Shown here one piece after another: positions 2,272 to 63,555 of a stretch of DNA of 64,000 nt (positions within the stretch are counted from its first letter, which is position 1; each line of letters starts with the position of its first letter). Source of the stretch: an uncultured Dehalococcoidia bacterium. Lineage in GTDB: Bacteria > Chloroflexota > Dehalococcoidia > Lucifugimonadales > GCA-2712585. The notes below the pieces were generated by a model that searched no databases, had not been told where the DNA came from, and saw only the letters and a program-made list of their open reading frames with translations. The stretch spans positions 816,459 through 880,458 of the forward strand of contig OX638324.1 of assembly GCA_951812825.1 (NCBI GenBank), written 5' to 3'. A program made the translations under genes and the position numbers.

Positions 2272-2308
2272 ACGTCATCCCCAAGAGGCCCCGCGACGAA
2301 GAATCTCG
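2272..2308 (+). repeat. Family A interspersed repeat, copy 1
   Basis: First of twelve dispersed copies of a ~37-bp element with the core gaggccccgcgacgaagaat. In most copies short arms ATTCT and AGAAT flank an 18-nt interior, so the element can fold. This copy is divergent in the left arm (catcccca). All twelve copies lie on the + strand. Confidence 0.75.
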
Positions 2309-6110: not shown

Positions 6111-6147
6111 ATGTCATTCTGAGGAGGCCCCGCGACGAAGAATCTAG
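6111..6147 (+). repeat. Family A repeat, copy 2
   Basis: Near-consensus copy with ATTCT and AGAAT arms, ending aatctag instead of aatctcg. It starts 20 bp after the ppdK stop. Confidence 0.75.
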
Positions 6148-6265: not shown

Positions 6266-6302
6266 ATGTCACTCTGAGGAGGCCCCTCGGCGAAGAATCC
6301 CG
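6266..6302 (+). repeat. Family A repeat, copy 3
   Basis: Variant copy with left arm ACTCT and interior cctcggcg in place of ccgcgacg. Confidence 0.7.
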
Positions 6303-7953: not shown

Positions 7954-7990
7954 ATGTCATCCTGAGGAGGCCCCGCGACGAAGGATCTCG
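7954..7990 (+). repeat. Family A repeat, copy 4 (covarying arms)
   Basis: The left arm reads ATCCT and the right arm AGGAT: both have changed together relative to ATTCT/AGAAT, so pairing is kept. Copy 10 (40397) shows the same pair. Confidence 0.75.
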
Positions 7991-10389: not shown

Positions 10390-10426
10390 ATGCCATTCTG
10401 AGGAGGCCCCGCGACGAAGAATCTCG
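10390..10426 (+). repeat. Family A repeat, copy 5
   Basis: Near-consensus copy (tgccattctg at the left), 27 bp after a family C hairpin; the two families often travel together. Confidence 0.75.
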
Positions 10427-11290: not shown

Positions 11291-11337
11291 ATATCCACCT
11301 ACTCTAGAACCTCAATTTCGCACTAATCTAATCCGTC

Positions 11338-11357
11338 ATTCCGGCGGAAGCCGGAAT
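11338..11357 (+). repeat. Family C hairpin repeat (covarying stem)
   Basis: ATTCCGGC, loop ggaa, GCCGGAAT. Relative to the copy at 10343 one base pair of the stem has changed on both sides and the 8-bp pairing is intact. Confidence 0.7.
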
Positions 11358-11386
11358 CCAGTCCCCTCCCTTCCCCCTCCACCCAA

Positions 11387-11423
11387 ATGTCATTCTGAGG
11401 AGGCTCCGCGACGAAGAATCTCG
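11387..11423 (+). repeat. Family A repeat, copy 6
   Basis: Copy with aggctccgcg in the interior, shared with copy 10; 30 bp after a family C hairpin. Confidence 0.75.
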
Positions 11424-15177: not shown

Positions 15178-15215
15178 ATGTCATTCTGAGGAAGGCCTCG
15201 CGACGAAGAATCTCG
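15178..15215 (+). repeat. Family A repeat, copy 7
   Basis: One base longer than consensus (gaggaaggcctcgcgacg); ATTCT and AGAAT arms intact. It starts 15 bp after the leuS stop. Confidence 0.72.
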
Positions 15216-22896: not shown

Positions 22897-23469
22897 GGGC
22901 CCTCCTCTCGCTTCCCCGCAAGGCTGACCATACCCTCTACGAGGTAAAGTTGGATAGCGCCACCGCCGGCCCGAATAAGGTCAAACATCCCCACGAAGGG
23001 TTTGCATCAAATCGCGCCTGCCTCCTATCCCGGCAAGCCCCCTTCAAACCCACCGCAGTACAAGCGGCAGTGGAGCCTTCGCCCATTGTAATCAGCCCAT
23101 TCTACACTGTCAATTTACAACACTCCCTCCTGTTCCTGCGAACGAACACCTTCCCCCGGTTCTCCCTTCCCCCTACACAAACATGTCATTCTGAGGAGGC
23201 CCCGAGGCGAAGAATCTCGCCCCCATTCACGCCCATTTCACCCAAATCCCCCAACCGACGCTCAACTCATAGAAGCCTCCCAATCCTCCCGTGTCCCCGC
23301 GGATGGGGGGACCCGCTCCTCATCCACACTCCCCCACACCTCCCCTTAGGTAACCCCACCCTCCGTCACCCCGTACACGCTTCCGTGCAAAAACTCCCTA
23401 AATCGAAACGCCCCCCATTCCTCCCTTCCCCCTTCATCCTCCCCGTGCTAACATCCCCCCTGACAACCC
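22897..23469. other. Divergent intergenic region between sdhA and ybeY
   Basis: Should contain the sdh operon promoter, but no clear -35/-10 pair is visible on the minus strand. It holds family A copy 8 (23183-23219) and C-rich filler; no gene. Confidence 0.5.
23183..23219 (+). repeat. Family A repeat, copy 8
   Basis: ATTCT/AGAAT arms intact; interior gaggccccgaggcg, similar to the altered interior of copy 3. Confidence 0.72.
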
Positions 23470-24015: not shown

Positions 24016-24050
24016 ATGTCATTCTGAGGAGGCCCCGCGACGAAGAATCT
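24016..24050 (+). repeat. Family A repeat, copy 9
   Basis: Consensus core with arms ATTCT/AGAAT, ending aatctcctcg; 63 bp before a family C hairpin at 24079. Confidence 0.74.
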
Positions 24051-24078
24051 CCTCGCCGTGACGCATACCCCAACCGTC

Positions 24079-24098
24079 ATTCCCGTGAAGGCGGGAAT
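24079..24098 (+). repeat. Family C hairpin repeat
   Basis: ATTCCCGT, loop gaag, GCGGGAAT; the closing pair is a T-G wobble, the rest perfect. Confidence 0.65.
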
Positions 24099-24286
24099 CC
24101 ATCTTCTCTCTTCCCCCTCGATGGGTGAATCTTAAAGCCCGCCCCGTACTTGTTGAAGGGATGGGGGTGACCCTCCCGTCCCCTCGCGAATGCGGGCCCA
24201 CTCCCCTCCTGGGGACGGTCCCGGAACCCCCCTCCACTGACAACTTTCACCTCCCCCACATTCCCCAAAACTGGTACAATCATCCT

Positions 24287-25909: not shown

Positions 25910-26208
25910 TGAATCGAAAGATGATCAAACAGGCCCAGAAGCTCCAGGCCCAGCTTCAGAAAGCCCAGCGTGACCTCGAAGATTCCACCGTCGTCGGCAC
26001 CGCCGGAGGCGGCGTCGTCAGGGTGGTAATGACGGGTAAGCAGACCGTCGAGTCCGTCGAAATCGACCCCGAAGCCGCCGAAGACATAGAACTCCTCCAG
26101 GACCTCGTAACCGCCGCCGTCAACGACGCCGCAGCCAAGGTTCAGGAAATGGCCGCCCAAAAGCTGGGTGGCCTCGCCGGCGGACTCAATATCCCCGGGC
26201 TCATGTAA
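25909..26208 (+). CDS. ybaB: YbaB/EbfC nucleoid-associated protein
   Basis: 99 residues, typical size. It starts MNRKMIKQAQKLQAQLQKAQ, with the family's GGGVVRVVMTGKQTVESVEID and the C-terminal AAAKVQEMAAQKLGGLAGGL. It binds DNA as a homodimer. The ATG shares one base with the dnaX stop (TGATG), so the two are translationally coupled. In most bacteria recR follows ybaB; here the next gene is a CoA-transferase and base composition changes at once, which makes this a likely break point. Confidence 0.94.
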   Translation: MNRKMIKQAQKLQAQLQKAQRDLEDSTVVGTAGGGVVRVVMTGKQTVESVEIDPEAAEDIELLQDLVTAAVNDAAAKVQEMAAQKLGGLAGGLNIPGLM

Positions 26209-26368
26209 CCCATAACCCCTCCCAACTCGATGGGATTCACGTACCGACGATATGGGTCATGGCATTCCGAGGAGATATATTCCCACCCCCGAGCCGGCGA
26301 GGACAAGCCCTGCGTCAAAACAACGTTGGCTGGGAACATTATGGTGATGGTTTGTCAGGACAGAAATA

Positions 26369-27796
26369 ATGGCTGAGAGGTTGAGCCGGGAGTTGATGGC
26401 CCTGCGGGTCGCGGCGGAGCTGCGTCCTCGGGAGGTGGTGAACCTCGGCATCGGCATGCCCACCCTGGTGGCGAACTACGTTCCCGATAGTCGCGGGGTG
26501 GTCATGCACTCGGAGAACGGCATCCTGGGCTACGGGGCCTACGCCGCAGAGGGCGCGGAGGACCTCGACCTGATCAACGCCCGCGCCGAACACGTCAGGT
26601 GGCATCCGGGCGGCGCCGCCATTAGTCACACCGACGCCTTCAGCATCGTTCGCAGCGGCAGGTTGGACGTGGCGGTGCTGGGTGCGCTCCAGGTGTCGGA
26701 ACGGGGAGACCTGGCCAACTGGATGGTGCCTGGCAAGGGCGTGGGAAGTCCGGGTGGAGGCCTCGACATGGCCGCCGGAGCAAAGCGCCTCATCGCCATA
26801 ACGGAGCACTCCAACCAGGGAAAGCCGAAGATACTGCGCGAGTGCAGCTATCCCTTGACCGTCGCGGGCAGGGTGAATCTCATCGTTACCGATATCGCCG
26901 TCATCGAGGTGACGACGCAAGGGTTGGTGTTGAAGGAACGTGCGCCCGGCTGGTCAACCGGGGAAATCCAATCGGAGACGGAAGCCCGGTTGCGGCAGGT
27001 TGCGCCGGTGAAGGAGATGGAGTTCATCATTCCCGAAACGTCGCCTCCCGGTAAGGTGCTTCCTGATGCGGCAGCCGCGGTGGCGGATATACCCGACGGA
27101 GCCACCATTCTGATGGACGGCTTCGGCGGTATAGGAGGAATGGCCCACTATCTGATGCTTGCGCTGCGAGACCACGGGGCGCGCGACTTGACCGTAGTGG
27201 GCAACACCGTAGGCATCGCGCGGGTGTCAACCTTCGGGCAGCCGCCTTCCCCGGGGCTCCAGGCCATCGACCACGCCATCCTCGTGGAGAAGGGACAGGT
27301 AAAGCACGCAATCGCCTCCTTCCCGGTATCGCCGTCACCTTCCAGGCCATCGGCCTTCGAGCAGGCGTACCAGCGGGGAGAGGTGACGTTAGAGGTTGTG
27401 CCCCAGGGTACGTTGGCGGAGCGTCTGAGGGCGGGAGGCGCGGGGGTCCCCGCATTCTTCACGCCCACGGGTGCTGGCACAGTCGTGGCCGAGGGGAAGG
27501 AGACGAAAATAATCCATGGGCGGGAGTACGTGCTGGAGCAGGCCATTCGTGGAGACTACGCGTTCATCCGTGCCCACAAGGCGGATACGGCGGGAAATCT
27601 CGTCTACCGGGGAACCTCGCGCAACTTCAACGCCGCCATGGCAACGGCGGCGCGAATTACCATCGCCGAGGTGAACGAGATTGTGGAAGCGGGAGCCCTG
27701 GACCCGGACGAAATCGTAACGCCCGGGCTGTACGTGGACAGAATTGTCCAGAGACCGGAAGGGTTTTCCCCCTTCAGGCCCGTTGAGGAGGGTTAG
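26369..27796 (+). CDS. Fused 3-oxoacid CoA-transferase (B subunit then A subunit)
   Basis: 475 residues. Residues 1-215 are a CoA-transferase B subunit (ELRPREVVNLGIGMPTLVANY, HSENGILGYG with the catalytic-type glutamate, SERGDLANWMVPGKGVG). Residues 225-475 are an A subunit (IPDGATILMDGFGGIGGMAHYL, TLAERLRAGGAGVPAFFTPTG, GREYVLEQAIRGDYAFIRAHKADTAG, VTPGLYVDRIV in short stretches). The usual natural fusion (SCOT) is A then B, so the order here is reversed. It probably moves CoA between a 3-oxo acid or similar acid and succinyl- or acetyl-CoA. It is followed after one base by another B-type gene. Confidence 0.88.
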   Translation: MAERLSRELMALRVAAELRPREVVNLGIGMPTLVANYVPDSRGVVMHSENGILGYGAYAAEGAEDLDLINARAEHVRWHPGGAAISHTDAFSIVRSGRLDVAVLGALQVSERGDLANWMVPGKGVGSPGGGLDMAAGAKRLIAITEHSNQGKPKILRECSYPLTVAGRVNLIVTDIAVIEVTTQGLVLKERAPGWSTGEIQSETEARLRQVAPVKEMEFIIPETSPPGKVLPDAAAAVADIPDGATILMDGFGGIGGMAHYLMLALRDHGARDLTVVGNTVGIARVSTFGQPPSPGLQAIDHAILVEKGQVKHAIASFPVSPSPSRPSAFEQAYQRGEVTLEVVPQGTLAERLRAGGAGVPAFFTPTGAGTVVAEGKETKIIHGREYVLEQAIRGDYAFIRAHKADTAGNLVYRGTSRNFNAAMATAARITIAEVNEIVEAGALDPDEIVTPGLYVDRIVQRPEGFSPFRPVEEG

Positions 27797-27797
27797 G

Positions 27798-28463
27798 TTG
27801 CAGAAGGAGCGGCTGCCCAGAGACGTCATTGCCATGCGGGTGGCGAAGGAGCTTCCTGCCGGTGCGGTAGTGAATCTCGGCATCGGCATACCCACGCTGG
27901 TGTCCAATTATCTGGAGGGCGAGCAGTCGGTCTTGTACCACAGCGAAAGCGGCGTGCTGAATTACGGGCCTCTGGCTGAAGAGCACGAGAAGGACTACGA
28001 CCTGATCAACGCGGGCGGCCAGTTCTTGAGATGGGTGCCCGGTATGGCCTTCTTCAGCTCCGACGAGGCCTTCGCCATGATCCGGGGTGGACACGTAGAA
28101 GTTACGGTATTGGGCGCACTGCAGGTGTCGGAACACGGAGACTTGGCAAACTGGATGCTCCCCCAGCGTGGCGTCGGGAACATAGGCGGCGCCATGGACC
28201 TGGCCGTCGGCGCGAAGCGGGTAATAGTTGCGATGGAACACACGGACCGCCAGAACCGTCCCAAGGTGGTGAAAGAGTGCACCTTCCCCCTCACGGGTAA
28301 GGGATGCGTCAGCCTCGTGGTGACGGACCTGGCCGTCATTGAGGTTACTCCTGACGGCATGGTCCTGCGAGAGGTCGCGCCCGACTGGTCCGCTGCGGAA
28401 GTGCAGTCGTTGACAGAGGCAAAACTCCAGGTTGCCCCGGACTTGAGGGAATACGAGCTATAG
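27798..28463 (+). CDS. 3-oxoacid CoA-transferase B subunit, second copy
   Basis: 221 residues, clearly paralogous to the N-terminal half of the preceding fusion (shared VVNLGIGxPTLVxNY, VLGALQVSExGDLANWM, VVTDLAVIEVT). The catalytic loop reads HSESGVLNYG where the fusion has HSENGILGYG: the glutamate is kept, the following asparagine is serine. The start is the TTG at 27798 with GGAGGG at 27787-27792, one base after the previous stop, so it is coupled. No A subunit follows. It may pair with the fusion's A half or with the orphan A subunit at 39506-40180. Confidence 0.87.
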   Translation: MQKERLPRDVIAMRVAKELPAGAVVNLGIGIPTLVSNYLEGEQSVLYHSESGVLNYGPLAEEHEKDYDLINAGGQFLRWVPGMAFFSSDEAFAMIRGGHVEVTVLGALQVSEHGDLANWMLPQRGVGNIGGAMDLAVGAKRVIVAMEHTDRQNRPKVVKECTFPLTGKGCVSLVVTDLAVIEVTPDGMVLREVAPDWSAAEVQSLTEAKLQVAPDLREYEL

Positions 28464-28733
28464 AGGCTTCACCCCCATCCCAACCCTCCTCCGTTGTACG
28501 GACCGGAGACACGGTTACACACGTTCGGGGAGGTGGGTTACACCTATTGGCATGGAAGATTGCCCATGTGTGTCGCCATGCCTTGGATAGAAGAAAACCT
28601 CATGTCCCGATGTAAGTGGTTCGTGGGACGGCATAACATCCTCAAGAAAGACACCAATGACTCAATGTCCGAGTTGGTGATACGAAGTGAGTGTAAGAGG
28701 TTAAGATACATAGACTTGATAAGGAGGTAAGAG

Positions 28734-29108
28734 ATGACCCTGGAGACAGTAGCTTTGTGGGCCAATATCATCACTGGGGCATTTGCAGTTGTAGCAGGAT
28801 TAGGAGGTTTCTTCTGGTGGCTTGGTGCAAGAAAGAATCGTGAGAAACAGTTGCGCTTCTACATAGAAGTTCTGAAAAAGCTTCGCGAAAAATATACTGA
28901 TTCCGACCAAAAGACACTGCAGATCCTGCAGGATTCTACTGCAGATATACCTCGACAAACTTTAGTTACCTTGACAAGCATCAATTCCAATCTAGGGTCT
29001 CTTTATAGGTTAATCGCGATGCATTCTGCCTATTCTGTGGCAGGAGCTTATGAGGAGCAGGAATGGAAGTTGCGGTCGCCTATTGCGAAGAAGGGAAATG
29101 AGAGTTAG
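28734..29108 (+). CDS. Small membrane-anchored protein of unknown function
   Basis: 124 residues. It starts MTLETVALWANIITGAFAVV, with a single N-terminal transmembrane helix (about residues 8-30), then GARKNREKQLRFY and an amphipathic, charged cytoplasmic part. I recognise no family. A perfect AAGGAGGT at 28721-28728 fixes the ATG. GC content is visibly lower than in its neighbours, and the preceding 270 bp are also atypical, so this gene looks like an insertion between the CoA-transferase and MmgE/PrpD genes. Confidence 0.55.
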   Translation: MTLETVALWANIITGAFAVVAGLGGFFWWLGARKNREKQLRFYIEVLKKLREKYTDSDQKTLQILQDSTADIPRQTLVTLTSINSNLGSLYRLIAMHSAYSVAGAYEEQEWKLRSPIAKKGNES

Positions 29109-29142
29109 CAATACTTGGGAATAGTTTTAGGAAGTTTGTCGA

Positions 29143-30522
29143 ATGACGTTTACTGAAGTCATGGCCGAGTTCGCCTTCTCACTGACGCTTCAGGACGTGT
29201 CGGGCGAGGTCGAAAAGGCCGCCAGGAAGTACCTGGCGGATACCGTGGCTTGCATGATCGGCGCCTATCCCAGCGAACCGCCCAGGGCGCTCCGTCGTTG
29301 GCTTGCGGAGCAACGAAGCGTCGCCGAATCCACCATCATTGGCAGCGACCAAAAGGTGTCAACGGATAAGGCCGCGCTGGTGAACGGGACCATGGTCCGC
29401 TATCTGGACGCCAACGACATTCTGTACGAACCGGGTGGCAGAGGAGGCCACTTCAGCGACGCAACACCCAGCCTGCTGGCAATGGCGGAGAAGCATAGTC
29501 GTTCGGCCGATGAGCTCATCACCTGCATCGTCGCCTCCTACGAGCTGCAGGCCGCTCTGAACCGCGTCTTTCCGTTCATGGCGCGCGGCTTCCACGCCCT
29601 CACCCAGGTGACCTGGGTTGCGCCGATTCTGCTTGTCCGGCTGGCGGGCGGGACTCCCGCGCAGGCGGTCCACGCGGCCGGCCTTTCCGGCGCCACCGGC
29701 ATGGTGCTCAACACCTGGCTCAAACCCTCGCACAGCATCCCCTGGATTAAGGCCGTCTCCGTAGGCATGGCCGGCCAGCGCGCCGTTGACTCGGCGGAGA
29801 TGGCCATGCTGGACGTGACTGCATCCGAGGACGCCCTTGAGACCGCCATAGCGACCCTGGGCCCCGCCGCCGCTGAGGATGTGGACGTGAACGGCATGGC
29901 CCATCTGGGCAAGCAGTGGCACACCACCCGGAACATCATTAAGGCCTATCCGTCGCAGATTTTCACCCAGGCGGCGGTGCAAGCATCCATAGAGCTTCAC
30001 CGCCGGGGAGTGCGGGCCGATAGGGTCAGGAAGATTACTCTACGCGGTCACCGAAACGTGGCGTCGGGTGTACAGGGGTCCACGGAGGCTTACAGGCCCG
30101 CCAATAGAGAATCAGCGGACCACAGTACGCCCTACGTGATGTCAATGGCGCTGCTGCGGGGCAAGCTCACTCCCAGAGAATTCGAGGGCGCTCCGTGGAC
30201 GCGTCCCAACGTGCAGGCGTTGATGGACAAGGTCCACCTCGTCCTCGATCAAGACCGGGATTCGGCCTTCATGGAAAGAGGCGTCCTTGGCGTTCGTGTA
30301 GAGGCAGAATTAGCTGACGCTCAAACCCAAGTGGTCGAGATTCATCAGCCCAGAGGCCATCCCGATGCGCCATTCAGCCAGGAAAATCTGAAGCAGAAGA
30401 TAGAGTGGTTGGTTGAGGATGTGGCGAAACAGGAAACGGCGGGCCGTCTCATCGAGATATGCAACGAAATGTCAACGAAGGGTGACCTGACAGCTTTGAT
30501 TGAGGCTTCCAGGGTAGCGTAG
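29143..30522 (+). CDS. MmgE/PrpD family protein
   Basis: 459 residues, the normal length for 2-methylcitrate dehydratase-like proteins. Seen: VEKAARKYLADTVACMIGAYPS near residue 24, KAALVNGTMVRYLDANDI, GRGGHFSDATPSLLAMAE, YELQAALNR and a late WHTTRNIIKAYPSQ, which match the family's all-helical domain and lid. Members dehydrate tricarboxylic hydroxy acids (2-methylcitrate, citrate) or process cis-aconitate, but many have other substrates. Its position after CoA-transferases suggests an organic-acid degradation group. A second, divergent family member is at 61954-63345. Confidence 0.88.
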   Translation: MTFTEVMAEFAFSLTLQDVSGEVEKAARKYLADTVACMIGAYPSEPPRALRRWLAEQRSVAESTIIGSDQKVSTDKAALVNGTMVRYLDANDILYEPGGRGGHFSDATPSLLAMAEKHSRSADELITCIVASYELQAALNRVFPFMARGFHALTQVTWVAPILLVRLAGGTPAQAVHAAGLSGATGMVLNTWLKPSHSIPWIKAVSVGMAGQRAVDSAEMAMLDVTASEDALETAIATLGPAAAEDVDVNGMAHLGKQWHTTRNIIKAYPSQIFTQAAVQASIELHRRGVRADRVRKITLRGHRNVASGVQGSTEAYRPANRESADHSTPYVMSMALLRGKLTPREFEGAPWTRPNVQALMDKVHLVLDQDRDSAFMERGVLGVRVEAELADAQTQVVEIHQPRGHPDAPFSQENLKQKIEWLVEDVAKQETAGRLIEICNEMSTKGDLTALIEASRVA

Positions 30523-30525
30523 GGA

Positions 30526-33090
30526 TTAACTTATCCAGGCGGTGGAGGCGCCGTCCCGCTTCTGGACTTCGATGCGGACGGGAAAATAATCTTTCAACTC
30601 CTCCAGGTGAGTAATGACGATGATGCACTTGAAGTCCTGCTCCAACGTGGAAAGCACGTCGAGGATCTGCTCCCTGCCCGCCGAGTCCTGCGTCCCAAAC
30701 CCCTCGTCGATGAAAAGCGTCGGCAGCGGCGCGCCGCTGCGGTTGGCAAGAACCTTGGAAAGGGCGATTCGCAGCGCTAGGTTGATGCGGAAGGCCTCGC
30801 CCCCGCTGAACATTTCGTAGCTGCGATGGCCCAGTTCATCGCCGACCCTGATTTCCAGGGTCTCCGCGAACTGGCCCTTGCGCGACTGCAACCGACGCTG
30901 GCTCTCCAGCTTCAGGTGCATCCGGCCTTCGGTCATCCGGGCAAGAAGGCCGTTCGCTTCGGCCTCTATCTGGGGGAGAATGGTGTCGATGAGCAGCGCC
31001 TGCACACCTTCCCTCCCGAAGGCCACCCGCAATTCTTCATAGATGGCCTGCTCCTCACGCAGACGGCGCAGTTCGCGCGTCTGACGGTTTACCTGCCCCT
31101 CAAGCTCTTCGATCCGTTGGAGGCTTCCCTGCAGTTGACCCCGGCGGGCTAGCAGGTTATTGTGCCGCGATTCCAGACCGGCTATGTCCACCGAGAGGCG
31201 TGACAGTTGCTGGCTGACTTCGGCAAGCCGAACTTGGTCGCTGTCCATAGTGGAAAGGAACTCGCCCATCTGGGAAAGCCGCTCCCCACGTTCCTGAACG
31301 GCCTGCCGGACTTGGGCCAGGCCCTCTTGCTCCTGGGGCAGGCTGCGCCTCGCTTCCGATATCTGCTGGTTGAGCAGTTGGTACTTTTGTAGCTCCTGAA
31401 GTCTGCGGGACAGTTCCGTATGGCGATCTGGAGAGTAGTCTAGGGATTCGAGAGCCGCCTTCCTGGTCTTGAGTTCTGCCTGCTCCACCGCCGCGAATTG
31501 GTTGTTTCGGATTGTGCTTTCCAGCTGCTTTAATTCCTGTCGCACCTTTGCCGCCTCCTCTCCGGCACGTCGTGAATCTTCCAGCTGCCGCTCAACGATG
31601 GTGATGTGGCGTTGGGCTTCCCTCTGGCTTCGGCGTAGGGTGGATTCGTCGCTCTGGAGCTGTCTTTCAAGATGGCTTCTCTCGGCTTCTACCTTGCTGA
31701 GGACAGTTTCGTTTTCCCTGTACTGCCTCCTTTTTTCCTTGATGGCTTCCTTATAGCTTTGTTCCAGTCGCAGGCATCCGTCCAGCCCTAGGGAAGTGTC
31801 GCAAAGGGGACAACGAGTGTCCTTGTGTGACGAGTCCAGCAGGTCAAGCTTGCCCCGGACCTCCTTTCCCTCACTTAGCAGGCGCTGCTGATTGTCTCTG
31901 AGAGTGGCCTCTGCGCCGCTTAATTCTTGAAGTTTGTCCTTCTTTTCAGACAGAGCCTTCTCTTCCCCGTCCAAGGCTGCGATGCGAGCCGCGGATTGGA
32001 CCAGCTGCTCTTCCAGCGCAGGAGCCTTTCGCACGACCGGTTCCAGGTCCGATTCCAGGCGACGCTTCTGGCTCAGGCGCTGTTCTTCCAGTCGGGCCTT
32101 CGTCTGCGCGATGGCTTGCTGGAGCAAGTTGACGTATCCGGTGAGTTCGTCGAACCGGGCACGTGCGTCGTTTAGCCGTTCGCTCTCCTCCAACGAGTGC
32201 TGGTACCGGGTAAAACCTTCTTCGATGGCCGGCTGGCGATCTATCAGTTCCTGATAGCCTTGGATTCGCGCGGAACGCTGCCGGGCGTCAGCTTCGTACT
32301 GAGAGATTTCGCCTTCCATCTGAGGTATGCGCCGTTGTATTTCTTCGGCCTCGGCGGTGCGTCGTTCCAGGCTCAGAATCTCCTGCCGTAACTTCTGGGC
32401 CTCCATGTTCTTCTGTTCCAGCTCTTCGGACAGGGTGCGAACACTTCCCAGGACGTCGTCCAGGTCCTTCTGGTGCTCCGGCTTGGCGGCGGTCTCCTGC
32501 CGCTTGTATTCAATCTCACCCTCCAGAAAGTTGCCGCGCTCCCGTCGTTCCCGTGCTCTGTCACGGCTCCGCCGCTGGAGTTCGTTGAACCGGTCCAGCC
32601 CGATAATCTTGCCCAGCACTTCCTTCCGTTCGGCGGGGGTCTTGTTGGTGAACTCGTCGGCCCGGCCCTGAATTAGAAATGCGCTGTTGATGAAGGTGTC
32701 GTAGTCCATGCCTATAATGCTGTTGATCTTGGCTTGGGACTCCCGAATGCTGTTGCCGGTGATGGGATGAAAGCCGGCGGGGCCCTTGAGCTGAAGCTGC
32801 AGGTCGCTCCCCCGGTGACTTTGATAGCGCCGGGTGACGCGATAGTGGGCGTCCGCGGCCAGGAACTCCAGCTCCACCCACATGTCGGAGCGTCCGTAGT
32901 GGATGAGGTCGGCGTGACCGGAGCCGCGGGCCTTCCCCCAGAGCGACCAGGTGATGCTGTCGAGGAGGGCGGACTTGCCGTGGCCGTTGTTTCCGCACAG
33001 GCAGGCGACGCGAATGCCGCTCAGGTCCAGGGTGTGGTTGTCGTCCCGATAGCAGAGAAAGTTCTGAAGGGTCAGCTTGAGAGGAATCAT
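30526..33090 (-). CDS. sbcC: SbcC/Rad50-type SMC-like ATPase
   Basis: 854 residues. The N-terminal Walker A is GNNGHGKSALLD (residues 33-44). Long coiled coils, rich in E, Q, R and L, flank a zinc hook CPLC at about residues 427-430. The C-terminal half has the signature FSGGEAFRINLALRIALSK and Walker B LPTLFIDEGFGTQD near residue 786. With the nuclease SbcD/Mre11 it processes DNA ends and hairpins. No sbcD is in the window. The ATG at 33090 matches the family N-terminus (MIPLKLTLQNFLCYRD); the frame open to 33525 overlaps ffh and is a shadow. A TACAAT lies 11 nt before the ATG. Confidence 0.92.
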   Translation of the reverse strand: MIPLKLTLQNFLCYRDDNHTLDLSGIRVACLCGNNGHGKSALLDSITWSLWGKARGSGHADLIHYGRSDMWVELEFLAADAHYRVTRRYQSHRGSDLQLQLKGPAGFHPITGNSIRESQAKINSIIGMDYDTFINSAFLIQGRADEFTNKTPAERKEVLGKIIGLDRFNELQRRSRDRARERRERGNFLEGEIEYKRQETAAKPEHQKDLDDVLGSVRTLSEELEQKNMEAQKLRQEILSLERRTAEAEEIQRRIPQMEGEISQYEADARQRSARIQGYQELIDRQPAIEEGFTRYQHSLEESERLNDARARFDELTGYVNLLQQAIAQTKARLEEQRLSQKRRLESDLEPVVRKAPALEEQLVQSAARIAALDGEEKALSEKKDKLQELSGAEATLRDNQQRLLSEGKEVRGKLDLLDSSHKDTRCPLCDTSLGLDGCLRLEQSYKEAIKEKRRQYRENETVLSKVEAERSHLERQLQSDESTLRRSQREAQRHITIVERQLEDSRRAGEEAAKVRQELKQLESTIRNNQFAAVEQAELKTRKAALESLDYSPDRHTELSRRLQELQKYQLLNQQISEARRSLPQEQEGLAQVRQAVQERGERLSQMGEFLSTMDSDQVRLAEVSQQLSRLSVDIAGLESRHNNLLARRGQLQGSLQRIEELEGQVNRQTRELRRLREEQAIYEELRVAFGREGVQALLIDTILPQIEAEANGLLARMTEGRMHLKLESQRRLQSRKGQFAETLEIRVGDELGHRSYEMFSGGEAFRINLALRIALSKVLANRSGAPLPTLFIDEGFGTQDSAGREQILDVLSTLEQDFKCIIVITHLEELKDYFPVRIEVQKRDGASTAWIS

Positions 33091-33130
33091 GGGGCAGGCG
33101 TATTGTAGCATAGGGTGAACGCTCTTCTGC

Positions 33131-33159
33131 TTGACCGCCCATGCGTGCCTGCCTAGAAT
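33131..33159 (+). promoter_or_regulatory. Promoter of ffh
   Basis: TTGACC (33131-33136) and TAGAAT (33154-33159) are separated by 17 bp. The start codon is only 10 nt beyond the -10 box, so the transcript would be leaderless or nearly so, unless the GGAGAC at 33161-33166 serves an upstream transcript. Confidence 0.55.
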
Positions 33160-33169
33160 TGGAGACGAT

Positions 33170-34501
33170 ATGTTTGAAGCGCTGACAGACAAACTCACCG
33201 GAGTCCTCGACCGTCTCACAAGTCGTGGCCGGCTCTCAGAGAAGGACGTGGACGACGCTCTCCGGCAGGTGCGTCTGGCCCTGCTGGGCGCCGACGTGAA
33301 TTTCAAGGTGGCCCGGGAGTTTGTGGCGCGGGTCAGGGAGCGGTCCGTGGGTCGCGAGGTGCTGGAATCGATAACCCCGGGCCAGCAGGTCGTCAAGATT
33401 GTCCACGAGGAGTTGACCGAGGTTCTCAGCGCCGGGGAGCATAAGCTGACTGCTTCCGACAGAACCCCCACCACCATCATGCTGGTGGGGCTCCAGGGCT
33501 CCGGCAAGACGACCTCGGCGGCCAAGCTCGCGGCTCACTTGAGACGTCAAAGCCAGAGTTCTTTGCTGGTGGCGGCGGACCTCAGGCGGGCGGCGGCCGT
33601 GCAGCAGCTGGTGTCCTTGGGCAAGCAGATGGCCATCCCCGTCTTCAGCCACGAATCCGCGAAGAATGCGGTCCAGGCCGCGTCGGCGGGGCTTGAGCGG
33701 GCGGAAGAGCTGGGCAGCCAGTGGGTGATTGTGGACACCGGCGGCCGGATGCACGTGGAAGAGGAGATGATGGCGGAGTTGGAGGAGCTGCATAACCGCA
33801 TTTCTCCCCACGAAGTGATTCTCGTGCTGGACGCCATGACCGGTCAGGACGCAGTGCAGGCGGCGGAAGAGTTTCACCGTCGCGTGCCCTTGTCGGGAAT
33901 CATCATGACGAAGCTGGACGGCGACGCGCGGGGTGGGGCTGCCCTCTCGGTGACGAAGGTCACGGGCGTGCCCATCAAATTCCTGGGCACGGGCGAGCGG
34001 GTCGACGCCCTGGACCCCTTCTATCCGGACAGGCTTGCGTCGCGGATTCTGGGCATGGGGGACGTGCTCAGCCTCGTCGAAAAGGCCCAGCAGGTGGTCG
34101 ACAAGAAGAAGGCGAAGGAGATGGAGCGGAAGCTCCGCCGCGCCGACTTCGACCTGGAGGACTTCCTCGAGCAGCTACAAAGCGTGAAGCGCATGGGCTC
34201 TCTGGGCCAGTTCATGGACATGATTCCCGGGTTCTCCAAAATGAGCAAAAAACTCCCCCAGGGGGCCATCGACGACGGCGAACTGAAGAAAGTCGAGGCC
34301 ATCATCCGGTCTATGACGCCCCAGGAACGTCGCAGTCCCAACATCATCAACGGCAGCCGCAGACGTCGAATCGCCCTCGGAAGCGGGACAAAGCCCCAAG
34401 ACGTGAACCAGCTGCTGAACCAGTTCGGGCAGGTGCAGAAGATGATCCGCCAGGTCACCAGCGGAAAGGGGACACGAAGCCTGGAGCGGCTGTTCAGGTA
34501 G
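33170..34501 (+). CDS. ffh: Signal recognition particle protein Ffh
   Basis: GTPase that binds 4.5S RNA and signal sequences and docks ribosomes to FtsY at the membrane. 443 residues. N domain MFEALTDKLTGVLDRLTSRG; G1 GLQGSGKTTSAAKL near residues 107-120; G3 VDTGGRMHVEEEMM; G4 TKLDGDARGGAA; methionine-rich M domain with MGSLGQFMDMIPGFSKM and the RNA-binding RRSPNIINGSRRRRIALGSG. The ATG at 33170 matches the family start; an in-frame TTG at 33131 would fall inside the -35 box. Divergent from sbcC. Confidence 0.96.
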   Translation: MFEALTDKLTGVLDRLTSRGRLSEKDVDDALRQVRLALLGADVNFKVAREFVARVRERSVGREVLESITPGQQVVKIVHEELTEVLSAGEHKLTASDRTPTTIMLVGLQGSGKTTSAAKLAAHLRRQSQSSLLVAADLRRAAAVQQLVSLGKQMAIPVFSHESAKNAVQAASAGLERAEELGSQWVIVDTGGRMHVEEEMMAELEELHNRISPHEVILVLDAMTGQDAVQAAEEFHRRVPLSGIIMTKLDGDARGGAALSVTKVTGVPIKFLGTGERVDALDPFYPDRLASRILGMGDVLSLVEKAQQVVDKKKAKEMERKLRRADFDLEDFLEQLQSVKRMGSLGQFMDMIPGFSKMSKKLPQGAIDDGELKKVEAIIRSMTPQERRSPNIINGSRRRRIALGSGTKPQDVNQLLNQFGQVQKMIRQVTSGKGTRSLERLFR

Positions 34502-34510
34502 GGATTGGCC

Positions 34511-35449
34511 CTAAGGGTTAAGAATATCGCCGGGAAGAAGTCCCCGTCGAAGGGCCGCGAACAGGTAGGTGGTGTACAGGGAGCGCCACGGCGCCCATCC
34601 TTCGGAGAATTCCTCCAACTCAGCAACCGTTAGCTCCTTCCCCTTGAAGTAGAGTCCCGCCACGACCCGACGCAGGGCCAGGTCGCCCGCAGGGAATGCG
34701 TCCATTCTTCCCAGCGCCCTCAGCAGCAGCCAGTGGGCCGTCCACGGCCCGACGCCACGCAGGGCAAGAAGCCGCTTTGTTGCTTCTTCGTCAGGCAGAT
34801 AACGGAGTCCCTCCATATCAAGAGACCCGTCCACGACGGCGGCTGCCACGTCCAGAATGTATTCCGCCTTACGATTGCTCAGCTTGATGGCGCGGAGACC
34901 GGGAATCCCCTCGGGCAGCAGAGCCGCCGGGGTCGGAAAGGCGTAGTAGATGTCCCCCTTGTGGCTGATTGTAGACCCGTAATTCTCCAGCAGCAGACTC
35001 CCGATGATTCGCGCCACGTTGGTCGCAATCTGCTGGCTGAAGATGGACTGGACGAAGGCCTCGAAAACGCTCGGCGTCTGGCTGATCTTGAGGCCGTAGA
35101 GCTGTTTTACCAGCGGCGCGAGAACGGGGTCCCGTCGGGCGGCGGCGTAGAACTCTTGCAACGGCGTGTCCCCGCCGAGCACCCATGCCAGGGTGCCGTG
35201 GACATATTCAAGGGTTTGATCGGTGATCTCTTCGCCATGGACGGTCACGTCAAGACGCGGGGCCTCGACCGTGCCTGCGGACTGGACCTCGGTCAGAAGA
35301 GTCTTGCCTTCCACCTCAAGAAGCCTGCTGTACCGCCCGTCTTCAAAGACGTTGACCCTGGCGCCGGTGCCGAATGAGGCCAGGTGCCCCATGGTCAGAC
35401 GGAAGTCGTAGGGTGGTGTGGGAGTCAGGACCAGGCTGCGTTGCTGCAC
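34511..35449 (-). CDS. HhH-GPD DNA glycosylase (AlkA/Ogg-like)
   Basis: 312 residues. The N-terminal ~110 residues look like the TBP-like fold that precedes the catalytic part in AlkA/Ogg1-type enzymes. The helix-hairpin-helix is LLALRGVGPWTAHWLLLR (about residues 227-244), with the catalytic aspartate D256 in AFPAGDLALRR. No lysine is present at the usual Ogg position in the hairpin (GVGPWTA, not GVGxKVA), so a monofunctional alkyl-purine glycosylase is more likely than a bifunctional OGG. No C-terminal Fe-S cysteines are present. The start is the GTG at 35449. It is last in a four-gene minus-strand operon. Confidence 0.88.
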   Translation of the reverse strand: MQQRSLVLTPTPPYDFRLTMGHLASFGTGARVNVFEDGRYSRLLEVEGKTLLTEVQSAGTVEAPRLDVTVHGEEITDQTLEYVHGTLAWVLGGDTPLQEFYAAARRDPVLAPLVKQLYGLKISQTPSVFEAFVQSIFSQQIATNVARIIGSLLLENYGSTISHKGDIYYAFPTPAALLPEGIPGLRAIKLSNRKAEYILDVAAAVVDGSLDMEGLRYLPDEEATKRLLALRGVGPWTAHWLLLRALGRMDAFPAGDLALRRVVAGLYFKGKELTVAELEEFSEGWAPWRSLYTTYLFAALRRGLLPGDILNP

Positions 35450-35460
35450 AGAACGTGCAC

Positions 35461-36066
35461 CTACTGAGTTGAGAGTCCAGATGCGTTGAGAAGTCTCGCC
35501 TCACCCAGCGACCGGTACACGGCGCCCTGTGGGGTTAGGGTGCTGTGGATAAGGTGGATTTTTTCCACGACCCACTGAAGTTCCCCCACGCTGGCTTCCT
35601 CTCGCAACGCGGCTCGGACAAGGTCGCGTTGGGATTCAGGCAGGGTTCGGCGAACGCGGCCAAGTGTAAGGTGCGGAGTGAAGCCCCGGCGGTCGGGTTC
35701 GAAGCCTAGGAACTGACACTGCCCTTCCACGGACGCCTGAAGTCGGGCAAGCGGCGAAAGGTCTCCGTTTAGCCCAACCCAGAGAATGCGGGGGTCGTTT
35801 GGGTTGGGGAAGACCCCAAGGTTGCCAAGCCCGAGGGTGAAAACATGATGACATCCAGCGGCGGATTCGATGGCGTCTAGGAGCAGAGCTACCGTGGAAG
35901 GCGGAACGTCTCCCAGAAACTTGAGCGTCAGATGGATGCCGCCGGGCTTAACCCACCGGACGCCGGACAGCCCCCGACCTTTCAGGCTTTCAATAGAGGT
36001 CGATAGCGCCTCTTTCACGTCGGAGGGAAGGTCAATGGCGATGAAACTGCGTATTCCTTCGTTCAT
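35461..36066 (-). CDS. thpR: RNA 2',3'-cyclic phosphodiesterase
   Basis: 201 residues of the 2H phosphoesterase family (LigT/ThpR). The two HxT motifs are HLTLKFLG (H45) and HLTLGRVR (H132), spaced as expected, with the start SFIAIDLPSDVKEAL. It opens 2',3'-cyclic phosphates on RNA ends to 2'-phosphates; the in vivo role is unclear. The ATG overlaps the mug stop (ATGA, 36063-36066), so translation is coupled. Confidence 0.93.
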   Translation of the reverse strand: MNEGIRSFIAIDLPSDVKEALSTSIESLKGRGLSGVRWVKPGGIHLTLKFLGDVPPSTVALLLDAIESAAGCHHVFTLGLGNLGVFPNPNDPRILWVGLNGDLSPLARLQASVEGQCQFLGFEPDRRGFTPHLTLGRVRRTLPESQRDLVRAALREEASVGELQWVVEKIHLIHSTLTPQGAVYRSLGEARLLNASGLSTQ

Positions 36067-36596
36067 AGCTCAATGAGGCAGTCGCGAAGTTTCTTGAGTT
36101 CTTGGAACCAGCAGACCAGAGTATCCAGGGAGTATTGGGCGTTGGCGGGACTGGGGTTGGGCACTACAAAGACCCGCGACGCACCGATGTTGTGAGGTTG
36201 GAGGCCAAGCTCGGCCTTCAGCTTCAGTCCTTCGGCGTATCGCAGGTAGTTGGCGTAGACTGTAAGCCCCTGGAAACAGACTATTGCAGGCTGACATTTC
36301 AGCAGCTTCTCTTTAAGGATCGGCGCGCCCTCCCGGTAGTCTTTGGCCCGTAGAGCCGATGCCTGTCTGGAGGGTCGCTTGACCAGGTCCGTAAAGCCGA
36401 TGCCGTGGTCGAGGAGCTTGTAGTCTTCCTCCATCCCCACGGCGAATTCAACAAGACCGGACTGGTTGAAGGCGCGCCAGAAGCGATTGCGTGGGTTAGC
36501 GAAGTAGTGGCCACGCTCCACCGAGACCTGGGAGGGGTTCAGGCCCACGAGAACAATGCCTAAATCTTCCGCCATGTAGTCTGGAAGCGTGTTCAT
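36063..36596 (-). CDS. mug: Mismatch-specific uracil/thymine-DNA glycosylase
   Basis: 177 residues. Motif 1 is VLVGLNPSQVSVERGHYFANP; the asparagine N20 corresponds to the water-positioning N18 of E. coli Mug (GINPG there, GLNPS here). Motif 2 is VVPNPSPANAQYSL. It excises uracil or thymine from mismatches opposite guanine, such as those arising from deamination of cytosine. It overlaps the upstream amidohydrolase gene by 4 nt and thpR by 4 nt. Confidence 0.9.
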   Translation of the reverse strand: MNTLPDYMAEDLGIVLVGLNPSQVSVERGHYFANPRNRFWRAFNQSGLVEFAVGMEEDYKLLDHGIGFTDLVKRPSRQASALRAKDYREGAPILKEKLLKCQPAIVCFQGLTVYANYLRYAEGLKLKAELGLQPHNIGASRVFVVPNPSPANAQYSLDTLVCWFQELKKLRDCLIEL

Positions 36597-37432
36597 AGGT
36601 TCAGAAGACTCTGACCGTTTTTACCGAGAATCAGACGCTTCTCTCCGTCGGTCAAATTACTGCCGTGCACCTGCCTGAGGAGGCGAGCTTGGGTCAGCAG
36701 GGGGTAGTCGGTCCCCAGGAGAATGCGTTCGGCCCCTGTTATGCTGGCGACGGACTCAAAGACGTCGGGTGTGTAGAGAAAGGGCGAGGCCGCCGTGTCA
36801 AAGTACACATTCTCCAGGCCCTCGCGCACCTCCGGCATAAGTGCGTAGAAGGGAAGGCCGCCGCCCCAGTGGGCGCAGACGATCCTGTTGTCAGGGAAGT
36901 TCTGGATGAACGACCAGAGCTTGTCGGGAGTGGTCTTGCCCTTGCCTGCGTAGCAGTGGCCTACCGGTTCTGAGCTGTGTACCAGCACAATGAGGCCCAT
37001 TTCGCGGGCGGCGTCCATGATGGGGGCCATCAAACCCTCGTCAGCAATGTCGAAGCCTTGCGTGTCCGGGTGAAGTTCGCCTATGCCGCGAGCCCCCCGC
37101 TCGACGCACCGCTCTATCTCTCGTAACGCGTCCCTGCCCCAGTTGGGGTTGACGGAGCAGAATGGTACTAGGCGACCGTCGCTGGAAGCTGCCGCGCGGA
37201 GAATATACTCGTTGGCCTCCCGAGCAACGCTCCGGCTTGTCCAGCCAAGGCCGAGTACGACGGTAACGTCCACCTTGGCCTTGTCCATGGCAAGAAGGAG
37301 TTCCGGCGCGGACGCGATCCTCGCCTTCGGGTTGCCGAAAAGCAGCGCGAAGGTCTCGTCCCGGGCAATTATCTCCTCCCGGCGAACCATAAAGGAAGGC
37401 GGATACAGGTGGGCGTGAAAGTCAATTATCAT
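36593..37432 (-). CDS. Amidohydrolase (amidohydrolase_2 family)
   Basis: 279 residues of the metal-dependent TIM-barrel type. Metal-site signatures: DFHAHLYPP (H6, H8), GIGELHPDTQGF, VLVHSSEPVG, VCAHWGGGLPF and LLGTDYPLL with the catalytic aspartate. The family includes decarboxylases and hydrolases of small acids; a TatD-type nuclease role is less likely because the motif spacing fits amidohydrolase_2 better. It is first in an operon with mug, thpR and a HhH-GPD glycosylase, each overlapping or 11 bp apart. A TATAAT (37447-37442 on the minus strand) lies 9 nt before the ATG, suggesting a leaderless transcript. Confidence 0.82.
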   Translation of the reverse strand: MIIDFHAHLYPPSFMVRREEIIARDETFALLFGNPKARIASAPELLLAMDKAKVDVTVVLGLGWTSRSVAREANEYILRAAASSDGRLVPFCSVNPNWGRDALREIERCVERGARGIGELHPDTQGFDIADEGLMAPIMDAAREMGLIVLVHSSEPVGHCYAGKGKTTPDKLWSFIQNFPDNRIVCAHWGGGLPFYALMPEVREGLENVYFDTAASPFLYTPDVFESVASITGAERILLGTDYPLLTQARLLRQVHGSNLTDGEKRLILGKNGQSLLNL

Positions 37433-37469
37433 GTCCCTTGCATTATAGTGAGGTAGAAGGGCCGAATGC

Positions 37470-37498
37470 TAGACAGTGGTTTGGGGCGTTGCTATAAT
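37470..37498 (+). promoter_or_regulatory. Promoter of the transketolase genes
   Basis: TAGACA (37470-37475) and a perfect TATAAT (37493-37498) with a 17-bp spacer. Transcription would start near 37505, about 90 nt before the ATG at 37595. Confidence 0.7.
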
Positions 37499-37594
37499 GC
37501 CCCTTCGAGAAGGATTGAAAGGGGCGCGGGCGACGATTGCATAGTAATAACGGAGCTTGCCGGGATACTGCGGTTGCCGTTGAGGCGTTTATTC

Positions 37595-38413
37595 ATGACT
37601 AGGGGCGCGGCCATAGCGGAGTTGCCGGGGATTGCCAGGGAATCTCGGCGGAACATTCTCAAGATGATTTTCGAAGCGGGCAGCGGCCATCCCGGCGGGT
37701 CCCTTTCCGAAATTGACATCCTGACGGCCCTATACTTTCGCGTCATGCGGGTGGACCCGCGGAACCCCAGGTGGGAAGGCAGAGACCGGTTCATCCTAAG
37801 CAAGGCCCACGCCTGTCCGGGGCTCTATGCGACCCTTGCAGCCCGCGGCTTCTTCCCCGTGGCAGACCTGCTCACCTTCCGTAAGATCAACAGCCGTTTG
37901 CAGGGGCACGCCCACGTAATGACGCCCGGCGTGGAAATGAGCGGCGGGTCCTTGGGCCAGGGGCTCTCTTTCGGCGTTGGGTGCGCACTGTCGGCGCGGC
38001 TGGATGGCCTGGACCACCGGGTCTTCGTCATGCTGGGCGACGGTGAGTGCGACGAAGGGCAGGTCTGGGAAGCGGCCATGTCGGCCTCCCACTACGGGCT
38101 CGACAATCTCGTGGCCATCGTAGACCGTAACCGCATCCAGAACGACAGGTTCACCGACGATGTGATGAAGCTTGAACCCCTCGCACAAAAATGGGAGGCC
38201 TTCGGTTGGAAGGCCCTGGAAATTGACGGCCACGACATGGAAGCCGTCGTGGAGGGGCTGGAGACGGCGGCTACCGTTCAGGGGCAGCCGGCGGTGGTCA
38301 TCGCCAGGACGGTGAAGGGCAAGGGCGTCAGCTTCATGGAAAACAACCCCGCCTTTCACGGCGCCGCCCCCAACGAAGAAGAATTCCAAAATGCGCTGGC
38401 TGAACTGGCCTGA
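37595..38413 (+). CDS. Transketolase, N-terminal (ThDP-binding) subunit
   Basis: 272 residues. The ThDP domain is shown by GSGHPGGSLSEIDILTALYF, SKAHACPGLYA, GSLGQGLSFGVG and the ThDP/Mg motif GDGECDEGQVWEAAMSASHYGLDNL (in parts: GDGECDEGQVWEA, then LVAIVDRNRIQND). It forms a two-subunit transketolase with the next gene. The frame is open to 37466, but the promoter at 37470-37498 rules out those starts; the ATG at 37595 fits, though its ribosome binding site is weak. The stop is 9 nt before the GTG of the C-terminal subunit gene. Confidence 0.9.
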   Translation: MTRGAAIAELPGIARESRRNILKMIFEAGSGHPGGSLSEIDILTALYFRVMRVDPRNPRWEGRDRFILSKAHACPGLYATLAARGFFPVADLLTFRKINSRLQGHAHVMTPGVEMSGGSLGQGLSFGVGCALSARLDGLDHRVFVMLGDGECDEGQVWEAAMSASHYGLDNLVAIVDRNRIQNDRFTDDVMKLEPLAQKWEAFGWKALEIDGHDMEAVVEGLETAATVQGQPAVVIARTVKGKGVSFMENNPAFHGAAPNEEEFQNALAELA

Positions 38414-38424
38414 GGGTATTTGAT

Positions 38425-39372
38425 GTGACCCAATCGTTGCCCAAAGTCGCAACCCGCGAAGCCTACGGACAGGCCCTCGTTGAGCTGGGCCGCGAGAATC
38501 CCGACATCGTCGTCTTGGGAGGCGACCTCAACAAGTCCACCTTCGTCCATCTTTTCGCCGCCGAGTTTCCCGACCGGTTCTTCGACTTTGGTCCGGCGGA
38601 GCAGAACATCATGGGCGTAGCGGCGGGAATGGCCGCTTCCGGCAAAGTCCCCTTCGTCAGCACCTTCTCCGTGTTTGGCATGTGCCGTCCCTTTGACCAG
38701 GTGCGCGTCGGCATTGCACAGCCCCATCTGGGCGTGAAGATCGTCTGCACCCACGCCGGAATTCTGACCGGCGAGGACGGTATGTCCGCCCACGGCATAG
38801 AGGACCTGTCCCTGGCGTGTTCCCTGCCCGGCTTCACCGTAGTCGCTCCTTCCGATGCCGTAGAGGCGGTCGCGGCGGTTCGCGCCGCTGCGAAAACGCC
38901 AGGTCCCTTCTACGTGCGCCTCTACAGACCGGCCACGCCCGTAATGCACTCCGAGGACTATGAATTTAGGCTGGGCGTGGGAGATGTGGTGCGACAGGGG
39001 AAGGACGCTTCGATCATAGCCACCGGGGTGATGGTCGCAACGGCATTGGAAACGGCGGATGCCCTGACGTCAAGGGGTGTCTCCTGCCGGGTGATAAACA
39101 TTCACACCCTTAGCCCCTTGGACGAGGATGTCATTGCGACAGCCGCCCAGGAGACCGGCGGGGTGGTTACCGTGGAGGAGCACCTCTCCCACGGAGGCCT
39201 TGGCAGCCGCGTAGCCCAGGTGTTGGGTAGAAAGGCCCCGGTGCCTTTGGAGATGGTGGCGCTGCAGGGGTACACCGAGTCAGGAGACCCGGCTCTCCTG
39301 ATAAAGAAATATCACCTGGCAGCGGAAGACGTGGAAGCTGCCGTCTGGCGCGTCTTGGAGCGTAAGAGCTAG
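38425..39372 (+). CDS. Transketolase, C-terminal subunit
   Basis: 315 residues with the pyrimidine-binding and C-terminal domains. Hallmarks: TREAYGQALVELGRENPDIVVLGGDL, DFGPAEQNIMGVAAGMAASG with the conserved ThDP-activating glutamate, HAGILTGEDGMSAHGIEDL and TVEEHLSHGGLGSRVAQV, each quoted in part. The start is the GTG at 38425, 12 nt after the previous gene's TGA, with TGAGGG as ribosome binding site. Split transketolases are common in archaea and in Chloroflexi and Firmicutes. Last gene of the G/C-balanced block. Confidence 0.91.
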   Translation: MTQSLPKVATREAYGQALVELGRENPDIVVLGGDLNKSTFVHLFAAEFPDRFFDFGPAEQNIMGVAAGMAASGKVPFVSTFSVFGMCRPFDQVRVGIAQPHLGVKIVCTHAGILTGEDGMSAHGIEDLSLACSLPGFTVVAPSDAVEAVAAVRAAAKTPGPFYVRLYRPATPVMHSEDYEFRLGVGDVVRQGKDASIIATGVMVATALETADALTSRGVSCRVINIHTLSPLDEDVIATAAQETGGVVTVEEHLSHGGLGSRVAQVLGRKAPVPLEMVALQGYTESGDPALLIKKYHLAAEDVEAAVWRVLERKS

Positions 39373-39505
39373 ACCTCCCTGGCCTCGCCGCACGTCCCAC
39401 CCATTCCCTCCAATTCCTTCTGTTTTCCCGCCAAGAGAGCCCTTTGCACAACCGTCATTCCGGCCCACGGGCAGGAATCCACCTTCCCCTCCTCCCACAC
39501 CCCCC

Positions 39506-40180: not shown

Positions 40181-40396
40181 GAATGAAGCCTCCCGAAATC
40201 AACGCTCCCCGCATTCTACCAGCCCCCGCCCCTCCCACCAACACCATCCCCTCCCCTCGTTCCTGCAAAGGCAGGAAACATCCCTCAACCCACGCCCGAA
40301 ATCCCCCCATACCCACCCAACTCCCTCTCACCCCCATTTCATCCTGACTTGCGTAGGGGCTCTACCCTTGTGGTCGCCCCCCACTTGCACAGCCGC

Positions 40397-40433
40397 ATGT
40401 CATCCTGAGGAGGCTCCGCGACGAAGGATCTCG
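40397..40433 (+). repeat. Family A repeat, copy 10 (covarying arms)
   Basis: Arms ATCCT and AGGAT, the same paired change seen in copy 4, with the aggctccgcg interior of copy 6. Confidence 0.75.
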
Positions 40434-56552: not shown

Positions 56553-56589
56553 ATCTCATTCTAAGGAGGCCCCGCGACGAAGAATCTCG
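56553..56589 (+). repeat. Family A repeat, copy 11
   Basis: tctcattctaaggagg variant, arms ATTCT/AGAAT intact; 40 bp after the second SDR gene. Confidence 0.73.
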
Positions 56590-61871: not shown

Positions 61872-61909
61872 CTGTCATTCTGAGGAGGCCCTGCGACGAA
61901 GAATCTCGC
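61872..61909 (+). repeat. Family A repeat, copy 12
   Basis: Consensus arms; interior aggccctgcgacg with one change. Confidence 0.74.
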
Positions 61910-63345: not shown

Positions 63346-63555
63346 GGGCCGTTCGCAAACTAACCTCCCCCAAAAGACGCCGGTGCCGCAAGTCCAACCC
63401 CGCAGGTTTGGAGCCGCTACAGGACCAGGTAGCGCATCTATGTCTTCTGGAACAGGGACAACTCTTCAACGGTCAGGCAATGGACCTATTCCGCCTTTCC
63501 CGCCCAACCTTCCGTCATTCCCCCGTAGGCGGGAATCCAGTCCCCTCCCTGCCCC

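Follow-up and report, generated by a model that had tools for sequence, protein, structure and literature searches.

REP palindromes are thought to be miniature mobile DNA. Among them, the CGTC super-family includes the neisserial dRS3 repeats (Di Nocera et al. 2013, PMC3733652). CGTC REPs are tagged by CGTC, or by the variants TGTC and CCTC, and feature stems which start with A-T and T-A pairs and run uninterrupted for 8–9 bp, loops of 4–5 nt, and a tail fitting CCA in most; they occur mostly as head-to-head dimers, and the authors report no transposase (PMC3733652). HUH Y1 transposases of the IS200/IS605 group act on single-stranded DNA (ssDNA), with the lagging-strand template as their insertion target (PMC6006769).

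The repeats analyzed here, called family A, were not found in any published description by sequence-motif searches of the literature. Like CGTC REPs, they carry GTC preceded by T, an A-T/T-A stem start and a short unpaired tail; they are intergenic and multicopy, with no known transposase of their own. Sibling repeats in the same region, of the form CGTCATTCC..GGAATCCA, are of the CGTC type, and a 29-nt core is mostly arranged head-to-head elsewhere. Unlike CGTC REPs, family A elements have stems longer than 8–9 bp and broken by G.A/A.G blocks, 6-nt loops and the tail CTCG instead of CCA, are not head-to-head dimers in this genome, and are strictly locked to one strand. Given these differences in stem, loop, tail and arrangement, family A fits best as a variant of the CGTC/TGTC-tagged REPs, and not as a plain member. 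The original prediction had set the folded element against a decaying transposon end; this contrast is unsupported, as the best fit is among REP palindromes.

Family A may also be compared to GTAG REPs and REPINs, which are moved by RAYT enzymes (TnpA-REP, Y1 HUH). All are short imperfect tagged hairpins with conserved internal mismatches, non-coding and dispersed, for which an ssDNA substrate is proposed. Unlike GTAG REPs, family A is tagged by TGTC, with no GTAG or GTGG, in a genome with no RAYT gene. Hairpin-recognising IS200/IS605 elements (IS608, ISDra2), in which two subterminal hairpins flank a TnpA gene, use ssDNA, and their insertion into the lagging-strand template would give a strand lock of the kind described below; unlike them, family A is a single repeated hairpin, with neither transposase nor a left/right end pair.

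Repeats in the 64-kb window

The window is a 64-kb stretch corresponding to bases 816459–880458 of a single contig of 2,472,204 bases (2.47 Mb). The twelve copies originally predicted were all found, and all are on the + strand; a fuzzy scan of both strands of the window gave nothing convincing on the minus strand. The consensus is matched with at most 3 mismatches by nine window copies, and by none in 100 dinucleotide shuffles. No Rfam match was found in the window. The features are as follows (window coordinates; CM, covariance model).

2272..2308, + strand, family A copy 1; 5' arm degenerate, ATCCC; CM match 818720
6111..6147, + strand, family A copy 2; CM match 822559
6266..6302, + strand, family A copy 3; arm ACTCT, change unpaired; CM match 822714
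7954..7990, + strand, family A copy 4; compensated arms ATCCT/AGGAT; CM match 824402
10390..10426, + strand, family A copy 5; flanked by two minus-strand genes; CM match 826838
11387..11423, + strand, family A copy 6; flanked by two minus-strand genes; CM match 827835
15178..15215, + strand, family A copy 7; 1-base insertion in the loop region; CM match 831626
23183..23219, + strand, family A copy 8; in a divergent gap; CM match 839631
24016..24052, + strand, family A copy 9; intergenic, ybeY / dnaX; CM match 840464
40397..40433, + strand, family A copy 10; compensated arms ATCCT/AGGAT; flanked by two minus-strand genes; CM match 856845
56553..56589, + strand, family A copy 11; CM match 873001
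61872..61908, + strand, family A copy 12; CM match 878320
11334..11361, + strand (as family A), sibling-class CGTC-type palindrome CGTCATTCCGGCGGAAGCCGGAATCCAG
24075..24102, + strand (as family A), sibling-class CGTC-type palindrome
63513..63540, + strand (as family A), sibling-class CGTC-type palindrome

A further sibling CGTC-type palindrome resides at 39453–39482, and all the window siblings are on the + strand. The paired change ATCCT/AGGAT noted earlier is confirmed at 7954 and 40397; the 5' arm is degenerate at 2272, and an arm is changed without compensation at 6266. The segment from about 26000 to 40300, within a strongly skewed region, has no GC skew and hosts no family A copy. This segment, which looks like a recent acquisition, encodes a CoA-transferase, an MmgE/PrpD protein, an SbcC-like ATPase and transketolase halves.

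Structure and genome-wide census

The exact-arm pattern CATTCTGAG-N(2-16)-CGAAGAATCT is matched 61 times genome-wide and its reversed control never; the family A core is found, with at most 3 mismatches, at 60 places. A covariance model built from the window copies retrieved 144 genome matches, which include family A and its relatives. About 75 are family A proper (at least 45 bits). The others are sibling forms with different inner stems, such as CATTCTGAGCGCAGCGAAGCGGAGTCGAAGAATCTCG, the arms of which include ACCCT/AGGGT, ATTCC/GGAAT and others. Elements measure about 40–50 bp. In a truncated subfamily, found at genome positions 345457, 350166, 2342701, 2417917 and others, a T run replaces the tag and the first arm (CTCTTTTTTCTGAGG...AGAATCTGGCGG).

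Family A elements are organized as tag, stem, symmetrical mismatch blocks, loop and tail. The tag TGTC (positions 12–15) is conserved at each base (T 67, G 65, T 63, C 67 of 70 copies). It is followed by the 5-bp stem ATTCT/AGAAT, the first two pairs of which are A-T in 68/70 and T-A in 67/70 copies, then by G.A/A.G blocks around single G-C pairs, a loop of about 6 nt, and the tail CTCG. Upstream lies a C/T-rich leader of 20 nt (positions -20 to -1: C 0.56, G 0.05); it has specific conserved letters, and looks like a part of the element.

The third arm pair of family A is T-A in 58 copies genome-wide, C-G in 7, C-A in 4 and T-G in 1, and the two sides covary (Fisher p 2e-6). Taking copies as they stand, shared descent included, 247 of 260 arm cells are paired in 65 distinct sequences (mean 223, maximum 230 in 2000 shuffles of the 3' arm), and 86 of 96 pairs are kept in the inner stems of the relatives, the sequence of which is free to vary (shuffle maximum 77). 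Several loop backgrounds show the same compensation. Compensatory stem changes are thus strong, and the claim that covariation points to selection on a folded form is supported. The stem was not recovered by minimum free energy folding of single family A copies, because G.A pairs interrupt it, and covariation was used instead; folding is good for those forms whose inner stem is long (z -3.4).

Orientation of the repeats and GC skew

The original prediction described every copy as being on the + strand, which is correct for the window but not for the genome, where 100 copies are on the + and 44 on the minus strand, sorted into 13 same-strand runs vs 62 expected (z -9.7). Orientation is therefore not random, and tracks GC skew. 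The window lies in a domain with a skew of -0.3. In skewed DNA (beyond 0.05), 134 of 135 copies have the element on the C-rich strand; copies in one skew domain are not independent, and the agreement holds across about ten sign changes. As the covariance model contains C-rich flanks, the test was repeated with flank-free patterns on all the CGTC-type palindromes in sampled stretches (about 1.12 Mb of the genome). Concordance with the C-rich strand in skewed DNA was 57/57 for the CTGAG class, 32/32 for the CATTCC class and 31/32 for the others. CGTC-type palindromes of this genome other than family A obey the same rule in 63 of 64 cases, and near-perfect palindromes of the CCSG class also are on the C-rich strand. 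Copies per 5 kb increase with skew (rho 0.48, in stretches partly chosen around copies).

Copies identical to the core consensus (15/15) and copies with 1–2 changes (34/34) are all concordant; hence the bias exists from insertion, or from shortly after it, and was probably not acquired by loss. These figures bear on the idea that copies were inserted in both orientations and that a hairpin stable in one strand was later deleted, or selected against, when in the lagging-strand template. Stable hairpins on the lagging template are deletion hot spots, and the two strands of the element differ in having G.A vs T.C mismatches. Loss would not account for the fact that perfect copies are already fully locked, nor for near-perfect CCSG palindromes obeying the rule, and the two strands of the short form are predicted to fold equally weakly as DNA (-1.9 and -1.7 kcal/mol). 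We consider a later loss of wrong-way copies quite improbable.

In skewed regions the two strands carry about equal numbers of genes (130/133 and 71/87), and the sign of third-codon skew is that of the chromosome strand for genes of either strand. Skew is accordingly replication-like, not transcriptional. Family A copies are mostly intergenic, as REPs are. Within unidirectional gaps, the gene strand carries 25 copies and the opposite strand 13; 18 reside in convergent and 9 in divergent gaps. The view that copies lie after + strand stops or minus-strand starts holds in part: gene ends are favoured, but opposite-strand and divergent copies also occur. On the basis of third-codon skew and gap counts, gene direction was rejected as an explanation of the strand rule.

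Family A might work as a transcribed RNA, forming 3' ends or stabilising mRNAs. Compensatory stem changes, the mild same-strand excess in unidirectional gaps and the excess in convergent gaps would fit this role, which we regard as very improbable given the opposite-strand and divergent copies, the dependence of orientation on the chromosome strand in 134/135 cases, and a window devoid of Rfam matches. Since orientation is set by the chromosome strand and not by genes, ssDNA is favoured over an RNA which ends or stabilises transcripts; the alternative of the original prediction, a fold of either RNA or ssDNA, is tilted by the strand rule to the latter.

Repeats in other genomes

The 16S gene of the host is 88% identical to that of OY282565.1, 87% to that of OY282494.1 (closed, uncultured Dehalococcoidia), and 78% to that of an Anaerolineae genome, so that a Dehalococcoidia-like bacterium of the Chloroflexota is the most likely host. 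In OY282565.1, 100 of 106 CTGAG copies are concordant with the C-rich strand, and most of the exceptions are the minus members of pairs arranged head-to-head at a distance of about 39 bp. Eight stretches near listed copies and twelve evenly spaced ones were sampled in this genome, and the latter agree. In a genome of the same family (G004), 22/22 copies follow the rule.

A genome of the same genus (G001) has little GC skew, except for one patch near 900 kb, and no CTGAG-type copies. It hosts many CATTCC-class palindromes, arranged in head-to-head clusters of + copies followed by minus copies with no overall skew, and CCSG-class palindromes with C/T-rich upstream flanks (C 0.54, T 0.27). Genes of G001 are only about 70–80% identical to those of the host, and the intergenic regions of the two genomes fail to align.

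A search of the other species in the genome collection found no family A element with its own loop. The 29-nt core TGTCATTCTGAGCGNAGCGAAGAATCTCG, identical apart from one free base, is found in many phyla, including Planctomycetota, Verrucomicrobia, Bacteroidota, Cyanobacteria, Acidobacteria, Aquificae, Armatimonadetes, Nitrospirae, Omnitrophota and Patescibacteria. In other phyla the CTGAG core has head-to-head neighbours in 52/70 cases, and CTGAG-class copies lack a C-rich leader (C 0.27, G 0.20). Family A copies here are singletons or same-direction pairs (among neighbours no more than 300 bp apart, 6 are same-direction and 1 is head-to-head), and the head-to-head habit is lost in this chromosome. 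Across phyla, the 29-nt core shows no orientation preference relative to the 8-kb skew (68:65; 10:4 where skew exceeds 0.1). As the strand rule holds in some genomes and not across phyla, the lock is a property of certain genomes, not of the sequence alone.

RAYT/Y1 was considered as a mobiliser, and rejected. The genome has 0 matches to Y1 transposases (RAYT/Y1_Tnp). Y1 genes are rare in the order (18/250 genomes), and none of its 21 Y1 loci is flanked by copies. Two weak matches to the Y1-protein HMM (loci L204 and L315) lie kilobases from the nearest copy.

How family A may spread

Family A may represent a lineage-specific, REP-like expansion which spread via ssDNA and inserted on only one of the arms of the replication fork, a reading that we hold with slightly better than even confidence. 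The element would move as a non-autonomous hairpin through ssDNA, mobilised by a trans-acting enzyme or by a replication-coupled process, and with insertion limited to one fork arm every copy would end with the hairpin strand on the C-rich strand of the chromosome. The G+T-rich strand usually is the leading strand; if this is the case here, the complement of the element would lie in the lagging-strand template. We infer that skew marks the direction of replication, and that insertion, not later loss, sets orientation. Denser copies where skew is higher, and an empty skew-free segment between 26 and 40 kb, are expected if both copies and skew accumulate under the same strand asymmetry.

Several observations count against fork-restricted insertion: the lack of Y1 transposases in the genome, and of copies beside the Y1 loci of the order; the indifference of the 29-nt core to skew in other phyla; and the C-rich leader of family A, as target preference could contribute. 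The main rival is a passive preference, in which elements insert beside a pyrimidine-rich strand and orientation follows skew with no fork-specific step, since strongly skewed intergenic DNA offers pyrimidine tracts on one strand only. The composition of the leader fits, and so do the C/T-rich sequences upstream of CCSG-class palindromes in low-skew G001, which lie in head-to-head clusters. The leader, with its conserved letters, looks nevertheless like a part of the element, and CTGAG repeats elsewhere lack it, so that we deem passive preference unlikely.

A selected polar DNA signal, KOPS- or Chi-like, would need one orientation relative to the fork. Polarity is near-perfect and has several switch points, as such a signal would require. 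Yet several unrelated palindrome classes follow the rule, spacing is irregular with long gaps, copies are mostly intergenic, and G001, of the same genus, has no CTGAG-type copy; a polar signal appears barely credible.

Skew domains and replication origins

GC skew swings gradually between -0.3 and +0.3, completing about five cycles over the contig; its sign changes near 55k, 0.2M, 1.0M, 1.33M, 1.42M, 1.59M, 1.82M, 2.25M, 2.29M and 2.40M. The two contig ends agree in skew. Such gradients speak against misassembly, and against a small number of recent inversions; overlapping inversions accumulated over a long time may have produced them. OY282565.1 features the same kind of multi-domain skew, up to 0.5. 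A bacterial chromosome is generally considered to have a single origin (PMC4403523). Several origins with scattered termination would give a gradual skew of multiple signs, and, as a tentative and rather doubtful proposal, this chromosome could be replicated from several origins, the strand-locked palindromes recording the same fork directions. The dnaA gene, at 1548352, is away from the nearest rising skew crossing, and no DnaA-box clusters were found at skew up-crossings in the stretches sampled.

Significance

CGTC-type palindromes have been known since 2013 with neither mobiliser nor mechanism. The near-total lock, observed in three genomes and for several palindrome classes, limits the possible mechanisms to strand-specific ones, the simplest candidate being ssDNA at the fork, and points to where an enzyme should be looked for. 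The data suggest that family A spread through single-stranded DNA, and that it is a possible marker of replication direction. If skew marks fork direction, the strand of the copies would independently record the direction of replication in uncultured Chloroflexota, and whether some bacterial chromosomes have several origins would become a testable question.
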